Shown here: positions 7,537 to 9,818 of the stretch, one piece after another
Position numbering within the stretch: position 1 is the stretch's first letter
Layout of the letters: each line of letters begins with the position of its first letter
NCBI RefSeq assembly: GCF_900187045.1
Contig: NZ_LT906453.1
Coordinates: forward strand, 2,418,001 to 2,482,000
Source: Dermatophilus congolensis
Lineage (GTDB): Bacteria > Actinomycetota > Actinomycetes > Actinomycetales > Dermatophilaceae
DNA: 64,000 nucleotides
Direction: 5' to 3'
Translations under genes and position numbers: made by a program
Notes under the pieces: generated by a model
The model's database searches: none
Seen by the model: the letters and a program-made list of their open reading frames with translations, nothing else
What the model was told of the DNA's origin: nothing

Positions 7537-9177
7537 CTAGTTTTGCTTGGGGGTGGGGTGAGTTGTGGTTCCGGCTGCCCAGGTGCGGTAGCCGCCGTCG
7601 AGGTTGCGGACGTGGTATCCGGCAGCTGTGAGGATGCGGCTTGCGATGTGGCCGCGGATTCCGACGGCGCAGTGAACGATGACGTTGTTTTGGGGGATTT
7701 CGGTGAGGCGTTCGCGGAGTTCGTCGAGGGGGACGTTGATTGCGCCGGGGATTGCTCCGGCGGTGAATTCGGTGGGGGTGCGAACGTCGATGAGTGTGGC
7801 GCCATCATGTTGGGCAGTGGCTAGTTCGTGCCATTGAATGGTTTTTTCGACGCCGGTGGCCCGATTTTCTGCGATGAATCCGAGCATGTTGATGGGGTCT
7901 TTTGCTGATCCGAATTGTGGCGCGTAGGCCAGTTCTAGTTCGGCGAGGTCGCAGGCGTGTAGTCCGGCTTGCATGGCTGTGGCGATGATGTCGATGCGTT
8001 TGTCTGCGCCGTCTTTTCCGATGGCTTGTGCACCGAGGATGGTGTCGGTGTGTGGGTCGATGAGGAGTTTGAGGGCGAGTGAGTTTGCTCCTGGGTAGTA
8101 GTTGGCGTGTGTGGTGGGGTGTGTGTGGATTGCTCGGTATTGCCGTCCGGCTGCGATGAGGCGTTTTTCGTTCCAGCCAACGGTTGCGACTTGCAGGCCG
8201 AGGATGCCGACGATGGCGGTGCCGAGTACTGGCCGGTTGGGGACGTCACGTCCGGTGATGGTGTCGGCGATGCGGCGTCCTTGGAGGTTGGCGGTATTGG
8301 CCAGTGGTATGAGGGTGTCCGTGCCGGTGATGGCGTCTTTCTTTTGTGCGGCGTCGCCGGCGGCGTAGATGGATGGGTCGCTGGTTCGGTAGTGGTCATC
8401 GACGATGATGCCTCCGTGTTCGCCGAGTTGTAGTCCGGCTTGTGCTGCGAGGTGTGATTCGGGCCGGACGCCGATGGCGGTGATGACGAGGTCGGCGGTG
8501 AGTTGTTCGCCGTTGTGGAGTTCGACGTGGTTTTCGCTGATGGCGGTCACTGTGGTGGATAGGCGTAGCGTGATTCCGGCATCGGTGATTGTTTGGTGTA
8601 CTTGGGCCACCATTTCTTTGTCGATGGGTGGCATGACTTGGGGTGATGCTTCGATGAGGGTGACTTTGAGTCCGCGGTGGAGGAGGTTTTCTGCCATTTC
8701 GACTCCGATGAAGCCGCCTCCGATGACGATGGCGGTTTGTGCTTTGGCGGCTGCGTCGATGATGGCGTCGGTGTCTTCGATGTTGCGTAGCGTTTTTGCT
8801 CGTTCGATTCCGGGGATGGGTGGGCGGATTGGGGTTGCCCCGGGTGCGAGGACGAGTGCGTCGTAGGGCAGGTCTGTTTCGTTGCCTGTGGTGAGGTCGC
8901 GGATGTGCAGTGTTTTGGCATCGCGGTTAATGGCGGTGGCTTCGGTGCGTGTGCGTACGTTGATGTTGAATCTGGTGGTGAGGGTTTGGGGGGTTTGTAG
9001 TAGCAGTGCCGTGCGTTCCTCGATGATGCCGCCTACGTGGTAGGGCAGGCCGCAGTTGGCGAAGGATACGTGGTTGCTTTTTTCGATGACGGTGATGGTG
9101 GCTGTTTCTTCGAGTCGGCGCAGACGGGCGGCTGTAGACATTCCGGCGGCGACGCCGCCCACGATGACGATATCCAT
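7537..9177 (-). CDS. CoA-disulfide reductase with C-terminal rhodanese domain
   Basis: 546 residues. An N-terminal FAD Rossmann fold (VIVGGVAAGMSTAARLRR) is followed by the redox motif SFANCGLPYHVGG (Cys42), an NAD(P)H fold (VIGGGFIGVEMAENL) and a dimerisation domain. A rhodanese domain fills the last 100 residues with loop HCAVGIRG (Cys503). The single active cysteine is typical of CoADR/Npx enzymes that use CoA; fusion to rhodanese marks the CoADR-RHD group, which reduces CoA persulfide or polysulfide. A TACCC-N4-GGGTA palindrome lies 10 bases upstream of the start, the same as in front of the nearby CstR-like gene, so I infer repression by that regulator and release by persulfide. Confidence 0.9.
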   Translation of the reverse strand: MDIVIVGGVAAGMSTAARLRRLEETATITVIEKSNHVSFANCGLPYHVGGIIEERTALLLQTPQTLTTRFNINVRTRTEATAINRDAKTLHIRDLTTGNETDLPYDALVLAPGATPIRPPIPGIERAKTLRNIEDTDAIIDAAAKAQTAIVIGGGFIGVEMAENLLHRGLKVTLIEASPQVMPPIDKEMVAQVHQTITDAGITLRLSTTVTAISENHVELHNGEQLTADLVITAIGVRPESHLAAQAGLQLGEHGGIIVDDHYRTSDPSIYAAGDAAQKKDAITGTDTLIPLANTANLQGRRIADTITGRDVPNRPVLGTAIVGILGLQVATVGWNEKRLIAAGRQYRAIHTHPTTHANYYPGANSLALKLLIDPHTDTILGAQAIGKDGADKRIDIIATAMQAGLHACDLAELELAYAPQFGSAKDPINMLGFIAENRATGVEKTIQWHELATAQHDGATLIDVRTPTEFTAGAIPGAINVPLDELRERLTEIPQNNVIVHCAVGIRGHIASRILTAAGYHVRNLDGGYRTWAAGTTTHPTPKQN

Positions 9178-9186
9178 ACTAGAAAG

Positions 9187-9204
9187 TATACCCCCCGGGG
9201 TATA
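9187..9204. promoter_or_regulatory. CsoR/CstR-family operator 1
   Basis: Perfect inverted repeat TATACCCC-CC-GGGGTATA between the divergent starts of the CoA-disulfide reductase gene (minus) and the small Cys-rich gene (plus). C/G-tract palindromes flanked by TA are the known binding sites of CsoR/CstR/RcnR proteins, and such a regulator gene starts at 9555. Confidence 0.8.
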
Positions 9205-9284
9205 TCTTAGGGGTGTCGCTTAGGACACATCCCCCTCTCCTTAACCACATCAAGCGCATTGACATACTTACCGAGGAGTAGCGC

Positions 9285-9449
9285 ATGTGCCGATCTGTCA
9301 CCTGTAAAACCTGCGGAAAAACCACATGGGCTGGTTGCGGTCAACACATTGAAGCTGTGAAGCACACTGTCCCTGCTGACCAATGGTGCAACGGCCACCC
9401 CCCTACCAGCACTAGCAGCAGTCTTATTGCGCGTCTTTTAGGGCGGTGA
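9285..9449 (+). CDS. Small Cys-rich (zinc-ribbon-like) protein of the persulfide module
   Basis: 54 residues, ATG at 9285 with GAGGAG upstream at good spacing, stop TGA at 9447-9449. The protein starts MCRSVTCKTCGKTTWAGCGQ and has five cysteines (2, 7, 10, 18, 35) plus HTVP-WCNGH. The CxxC, CxxxxxxxC and CNGH arrangement suggests a zinc knuckle or thiol-reactive protein. I recall similar short proteins beginning MCR-VTCKTCGK in actinobacteria, without known function. It lies exactly between two CsoR/CstR-type operators and before the regulator gene, so it is probably part of the same regulon. Confidence 0.75.
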   Translation: MCRSVTCKTCGKTTWAGCGQHIEAVKHTVPADQWCNGHPPTSTSSSLIARLLGR

Positions 9450-9475
9450 CTGGTCAGGTCAGCGCGAGGGCCGCG

Positions 9476-9505
9476 GGGTATCTACATTCGATACCCATTG
9501 GGGTA
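9476..9505. promoter_or_regulatory. CsoR/CstR-family operator 2, upstream of the regulator gene
   Basis: TACCC-ATTG-GGGTA at 9492-9505 repeats the TACCC-N4-GGGTA pattern of operator 1. It overlaps a second inverted repeat, GGGTATC (9476-9482) with GATACCC (9490-9496). The regulator start is 50 bases further on, so this is the expected autoregulatory site. Confidence 0.75.
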
Positions 9506-9554
9506 CTTTGCAGTGGTACCGGTGTCATTTCTGTTGCATCTGTAAGGGGCTGTT

Positions 9555-9818
9555 TTGATCCTCGAACCTGCTGAATTGGACCCTGCTCTTAAGCGCCTGC
9601 GTCGGGCTCATGGTCAGCTCGCTGCGGTGATCCGCATGATTGAGGAGGGGCGAGACTGCAAAGACATCGTGACTCAGTTGTCTGCATGCAGTAGTGCTCT
9701 TGACCGGGCCGGGTTCACCATCATCACCACTGGGCTTCAGAAATGCATGAGCCAAGAAAACCCTGATCGTGAAGCTGATTTCGCCGCCTTGGAGAAGCTT
9801 TTCCTCTCCCTAGCCTGA
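9555..9818 (+). CDS. cstR: CstR-like persulfide-sensing repressor (CsoR/RcnR family)
   Basis: 87 residues from a TTG start. The all-helical CsoR fold shows in [22 protein letters not shown] and ALDRAGF. Cys35 and Cys64 are 29 residues apart, as in both CsoR (C36/C65) and CstR (C31/C60). The copper-binding His four residues before the second Cys in CsoR is Gly60 here, so copper binding is unlikely and the dithiol layout fits CstR, which forms di- and trisulfide links when exposed to persulfides. The neighbouring CoADR-rhodanese gene is a classic CstR-type target. An extra Cys45 is present. The family is certain; persulfide sensing is inferred. Confidence 0.82.

Follow-up and report, generated by a model that had tools for sequence, protein, structure and literature searches.

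A putative CstR-type persulfide regulon of Dermatophilus congolensis and its conserved, unnamed cysteine-rich small protein

Which signal a DUF156-family regulator of Dermatophilus congolensis answers to, and what a cysteine-rich protein of only 54 residues encoded beside it might do, are the questions raised by a locus within a 64,000-nucleotide stretch of the genome (hereafter the window; NZ_LT906453.1, positions 2,418,001 to 2,482,000). The first gene (window positions 7537..9177, minus strand) encodes a CoADR-rhodanese of 546 aa, a protein of the CoA-disulfide/CoA-persulfide reductase type with C42 and the rhodanese cysteine C503. Divergent from it is the small-protein gene (9285..9449, plus strand), which has an ATG start with GAGGAG upstream, followed by the gene of a DUF156 repressor of CstR type (9555..9818, plus strand), which has a TTG start and encodes 87 aa with C35, G60, and C64. 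Two ATACC-N6-GGTA operators are common to these three genes. Operator 1 (9188..9203), the perfect palindrome ATACCCCCCGGGGTAT, lies between the divergent genes, and operator 2 (9491..9506), ATACCCATTGGGGTAC, lies upstream of the regulator gene. In an ORF check, the three reading frames, their strands, and their coordinates matched those given by an earlier sequence-only reading of this DNA; the coordinates likewise agree with its placement of the small gene between the CoADR-rhodanese gene and the regulator with operators on both sides. Exact copies of the TACCC-N4-GGGTA core that it described occur at only two sites of the window, 9189-9202 and 9492-9505, and its count of five cysteines in the 54-residue protein is exact (positions 2, 7, 10, 18, and 35).

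Between the end of operator 1 and the CoADR-rhodanese start codon on the minus strand there are about 10 bp (read by eye), and the transcript of this gene is therefore likely to be short or leaderless. No sigma-70 promoter match was found in the region, and the two terminator-like matches there correspond to the operator 1 palindrome itself and to a hairpin overlapping operator 2 by five bases. Close to the regulon, an ArsC-family thioredoxin-like protein (PF03960) is encoded on the minus strand (window 11191-11562); a relative of it was found near the small gene in 0 of the 80 loci of the species scan described below.

On its own, the short operator core is weak evidence. With one mismatch allowed, TACCC-N4-GGGTA has three sites in the window, and 5 of 100 whole-window shuffles gave as many. 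For the 384-bp stretch of the locus itself under a first-order Markov model, at least one exact site occurred in 0.11% of 100,000 trials and two occurred in none of them. Across the 2.63-Mb genome the short core is present at six places against five for its reversed control; since it is no commoner genome-wide than this control, we relied on the 16-bp palindrome, its placement, and homologous loci. The full palindrome is exact at three places in the genome, namely operator 1, a tRNA-like sequence, and a site upstream of an MBL-rhodanese gene. The second of these (G000:C1:1176182-1176197) overlaps the start of the tRNA-like sequence (by eye), and was set aside as a coincidence. The third (G000:C1:1664295-1664310) is situated just before the MBL-rhodanese gene, approximately 760 kb from the locus. 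The product of this gene is persulfide-dioxygenase-like, combining an MBL fold with a C-terminal rhodanese-like part, and gives weak NCBIfam matches to sulfur transferase/dioxygenase and rhodanese models; a relative of it encoded beside the small gene in locus L024 carries the Pfam domains Lactamase_B and Rhodanese. The sequence-only reading had called the regulon compact. Because a remote exact operator precedes the MBL-rhodanese gene, that description has to be given up, and the predicted regulon is a distributed one of at least three transcription units.

The published ATACCn6GGTAT of Streptomyces coelicolor is matched exactly by operator 1. According to the parts of the S. coelicolor study that were available, a CsoR-like repressor binds this sequence before the persulfide dioxygenase gene and is let go by sulfane sulfur through Cys37 (PMC7533328). 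This repressor, ScCsoR (SCO0620), is likewise a DUF156 protein with thiols 29 residues apart (C37 and C66), and it shares both the operator and autoregulation with the window system; its targets are a persulfide dioxygenase, a rhodanese, and a sulfite transporter (PMC7533328, same parts). The window system differs in having a local CoADR-rhodanese target, a remote MBL-rhodanese gene, and the 54-aa protein, of which the available parts of the ScCsoR study make no mention (PMC7533328).

The regulator itself belongs to PF02583 (DUF156/CsoR-RcnR family; 81.1 bits vs. a gathering score of 22.8) and reads C35, G60, and C64 at the CsoR ligand positions. It has a third cysteine, C45, which is absent from the sequence-only reading. 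Both thiols at the CsoR cysteine positions are 29 residues apart and the copper-ligand histidine is missing, with Gly in its place, as that reading had noted; this residue pattern supports its assignment of the regulator to the CstR rather than the copper type. The predicted operators, which precede the CoADR-rhodanese gene, the regulator's own gene, and the MBL-rhodanese gene, are also those expected of a CstR. A copper-sensor role for the regulator (CsoR/RicR), with the cluster serving as a thiol-rich defence against copper, is very improbable. RicR is indeed the best NCBIfam label of the regulator, far below cut-off (46 of 175 bits), and operators of copper sensors look similar in the available parts of the S. 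coelicolor study (PMC7533328). However, Gly60 breaks the C-H-C ligand set of CsoR/RicR proteins, the one other PF02583 gene in the same genome reads C-H-C and is a separate CsoR, and the partner genes encode persulfide enzymes; on these grounds we rejected a copper regulon.

By sequence, the solved chain closest to the regulator is 7mq1 (52 bits), followed among different molecules by a CsoR (37.7 bits). Like the regulator, 7mq1 has no histidine at the fourth residue before its second cysteine; its PDB label is csoR, and we take it to be the CstR of Streptococcus pneumoniae, a firmicute protein. In 19 related genomes, where 30 DUF156 loci out of 41 match rows were read, 23 regulators are C-H-C and seven are non-His. 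Operators (at least 9 of 10 core bases, mostly within 1.5 kb on each side) accompany all seven non-His, CstR-type regulators vs. one of the 23 C-H-C, CsoR-type ones, and the small gene is found beside three of the seven and beside 0 of the 23.

The CoADR-rhodanese contains the Pfam domains Pyr_redox_2, Pyr_redox_dim, and Rhodanese. An active cysteine near residue 42 (C42) together with a C-terminal rhodanese cysteine (C503) places it in the CoADR-RHD class. Its best PDB match is 3icr, a Coenzyme A-disulfide reductase with a rhodanese domain (546.8 bits over residues 3-534), a likeness that concerns the enzyme only; 8a56, "Coenzyme A-persulfide reductase", scores 506 bits, and the NCBIfam CoA-disulfide reductase model 462 bits, under its cut-off of 579. 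In the available portion of a study on Enterococcus faecalis, CoA-persulfide is reduced by the CoADR-rhodanese, and the cst-like operon (CstR, CoAPR) likewise places such an enzyme with two catalytic cysteines under CstR control (C42 and C508 in CoAPR vs. C42 and C503 in the window enzyme; PMC9405070). Unlike the window locus, E. faecalis has the separate rhodaneses RhdA and RhdB, and the term "small protein" occurs 0 times in the text of that study (PMC9405070).

The sequence-only reading had described the small protein as uncharted, and this holds for Pfam, NCBIfam, and PDB, none of which gave a match at or near cut-off. Scanning a single genome for each species yielded at least 348 relatives, the best 80 of which are all actinobacterial by record titles. 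The protein is encoded in 67 of 396 genomes of an evenly drawn sample of the phylum (E 0.001 or better; three of them weak) and in 10 of the 19 relatives of the source genome. Judged by sequence, it is a conserved actinobacterial family. It was also found in 74 of 72,556 plasmid records; in three such records the gene is called "hypothetical protein" in one and is unlisted in two (gene table incomplete). Two viral contigs (L264 and L265) encode relatives as well.

The genomic context of the family was read in two partly overlapping samples. Set 1 consists of 80 loci from the species scan, or 75 once five near-identical loci are removed, and set 2 of 80 loci from the phylum sample and the relatives (72 + 8). 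A DUF156 gene is present in 60 of the 80 loci of set 1, and all 61 such ORFs are non-His (CAC 36, CGC 24, CSC 1). The 75 loci include the regulator in 55, CoADR-rhodanese in 26, MBL-rhodanese in 24, and either enzyme in 50 cases, with TauE (17) and thioredoxin (10) as other neighbours. In set 2, the regulator is found in 36 of the 80 loci, again always non-His, CoADR-rhodanese in 14, MBL-rhodanese in 15, and either enzyme in 29; TauE (15), DUF302 (13), and thioredoxin (9) are its other neighbours. Over both sets, a DUF156 regulator lies near 91 of 155 small-gene loci and is of the CstR type in every case. Most of the listed genomes have between one and three PF02583 genes, so that chance placement of one within 5 kb of the small gene is estimated at roughly 1% at most. 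By hand count, the phylum-sample loci with a regulator come from ten families. Upstream of the small gene, operators matching 9 or more of the 10 core bases are present in 43 of the 75 loci of set 1 (36 exact) vs. 1.1% of 2,358 control blocks, and in 17 of 72 plus six of eight loci of set 2 (23/80) vs. 30 of 2,460 control blocks. Co-occurrence with sulfur genes, on which the sequence-only reading had staked its proposal of a persulfide regulon, was thus observed in both samples and supports that proposal, and we consider it very probable that the 54-aa protein belongs to the CstR regulon.

A clear operator is absent from 55 of the 72 phylum-sample loci. Several loci have an operator with no regulator nearby (e.g., L018, L058, L126, and L204), as is expected of a distributed regulon. 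At 45 of the 155 loci, many of them belonging to more distant members, none of the tagged regulator or sulfur-gene neighbours is present, and some genomes with the small gene have no DUF156 match (e.g., G024, G061, and G066). The 20 genes inspected beside such orphan copies have no common theme and include one rhodanese. Given these orphan loci and DUF156-less genomes, the use of the small protein is not tied to CstR alone, and CstR is one of its controllers. No genome of the large-genome family taken for Streptomyces relatives is among the small-protein matches listed; the small-protein family thus seems to be absent from Streptomyces, and the best-studied circuit would work without it.

A nearly identical block with a CstR-type regulator and the small gene was observed at L010-L013, L015, and L023, with an additional methyltransferase gene at L010. 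The hosts of this block are a Microbacterium plasmid, Thermocrispum, Cellulosimicrobium, Microlunatus, and Haematomicrobium, and its near identity in different genera suggests a recent transfer on a mobile element.

A sister genome of the same genus (G396) lacks both the small gene and a full CoADR-rhodanese, for which the best matches there are 36% and cover residues 1-431 only. The regulator protein is identical over the stretch compared, operator 2 is kept with one base changed, and the MBL-rhodanese is 94% identical over residues 12-472 and retains the exact operator. Beside operator 2, a relic of approximately 35 bases of the 3' end of the small gene, with a one-base gap, is still present (L248, G396:C1:1643833-1653545). 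Both genes of the divergent pair seem to have been lost in a single deletion. This joint loss fits a functional pair of CoADR-rhodanese and small gene and is no proof of one, since the two genes are neighbours.

Seven ligand-type residues are present in the small protein (C2, C7, C10, C18, H21, C35, and H38). Over 158 distinct sequences, C2, C7, C10, G17, C18, G19, H21, and C35 are invariant, and W15 is conserved in 154. The seventh ligand position is Cys37 in 53 sequences and His38/39 in all 105 others, and a tree built from residues 1-34, itself weak, requires at least 12 switches between these states. All 158 sequences thus have the conserved Cys/His ligand set with Cys/His interchange expected of a zinc miniprotein. 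A metal ligand is favoured by this strict exchange of Cys for His, in which nothing else is allowed, unlike a persulfide-bearing cysteine, which is not expected to give way to histidine. From this exchange we infer that the small protein quite probably holds a metal site. The sequence-only reading had offered a new persulfide carrier or a zinc/thiol sensor as possible roles, and either may hold, with the exchange leaning towards a metal site.

Every member read starts with M-C or V-C (155 M, 3 V), and a Shine-Dalgarno-like stretch precedes the gene at 129 of 155 loci. A cysteine in position 2 normally permits removal of the initiator methionine, and the small protein is therefore likely to carry an exposed N-terminal Cys2 after Met excision. 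Further conserved features are the motif KTTWAGCG and a basic C-terminal tail with the consensus GFFxRLFGR. An AF2 model of moderate quality predicts two strands and a helix (pLDDT 83-85 for residues 1-40 and 78 overall; pTM 0.47); it had no Foldseek match to a solved structure at E 0.001 or better, and VIA-align of the model gave none with Z 2.

Such a protein could be a plain structural zinc-finger adaptor that carries no sulfur, its finger and basic tail binding CoADR-rhodanese, the MBL enzyme, or the repressor and tuning their activity. The invariant Cys/His set with its exchange, the strand-strand-helix arrangement of the model, and the conserved tail are all consistent with an adaptor, which we regard as possible. 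However, no partner protein came to light, the neighbours differ in kind, and the tail is weaker in the subtype with Cys37 (C-x-C; 20/53 vs. 73/105 in the others, by crude, non-identical patterns). Some loci have two small genes near each other on the same strand. A thioredoxin gene separates them at L130, L062, L067, and L079, and they stand in a row at L024, L031, and L045; the pair at L130, in one operon, combines different subtypes, C-x-G-H and C-x-C.

Persulfides strip zinc from proteins, and a metallothionein-like store of zinc (or copper) made alongside the sulfur enzymes would explain both the seven ligand-type residues within 54 aa and the control by a reactive-sulfur sensor. We find such a buffer unlikely, however, as the neighbours are sulfur genes rather than metal-transport genes, the small gene is found in 0 of the 23 CsoR-type loci, and the motif KTTWAGCG is far more rigid than a chelator requires. 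Our preferred reading is that the small protein is under CstR control, binds metal, and belongs to sulfane-sulfur defence. We regard this as fairly likely, the acceptor step described below being set apart from this judgement.

In a resting cell, the DUF156 repressor would occupy operator 1 and shut the CoADR-rhodanese and small-protein genes; it would also sit on operator 2 before its own gene and on the remote copy before the MBL-rhodanese gene. Persulfide or polysulfide would then modify C35, with C64, and the repressor would be released. Repression and release by sulfane sulfur are what we infer from the published homologues. Upon derepression, the CoADR-rhodanese would turn CoA-persulfide into CoA and sulfide, the MBL-rhodanese enzyme would take part in persulfide oxidation, and the 54-aa protein would be made. 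The latter would most likely be a zinc-thiolate miniprotein whose ligands come from among C7, C10, C18, H21, C35, and Cys37/His38. It may act as a labile thiolate acceptor and pass sulfur on to partners with neighbouring genes, namely rhodanese/CoADR, MBL, or thioredoxin proteins. The acceptor role is suggested by genomic context and is put forward tentatively. No Pfam or NCBIfam match connects the small protein to a known sulfur carrier (TusA-like or other); it may nevertheless function as one. More speculative, and in our judgement doubtful, is a wider role in which this unnamed zinc-thiolate family of ~55 aa with its exposed N-terminal cysteine would be a general actinobacterial sulfane-sulfur handler, made via CstR and taking the place that TusA-type carriers have in other bacteria. 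It would pick up sulfur at Cys2 or a persulfide-labile zinc site and hand it to CoADR-rhodanese, MBL-rhodanese, or thioredoxin, with the C-x-G-H and C-x-C subtypes as donor and acceptor forms.

Regulons of this kind are known, and the new part here is a conserved unnamed component. Searches by motif string or by topic did not find the small protein in the open-access literature covered. Among the actinobacteria are major producers of antibiotics as well as pathogens. Work on how they control persulfides has centred on Streptomyces, the very group in which the small-protein family seems to be missing. With its small size, wide distribution, strict conservation, and frequent lack of annotation, a gene such as this under a CstR switch is a candidate for a missing step, in which persulfide sulfur may be held or passed on, or zinc protected, under reactive-sulfur stress. 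The small protein is thus likely to be an overlooked part of bacterial sulfur defence.
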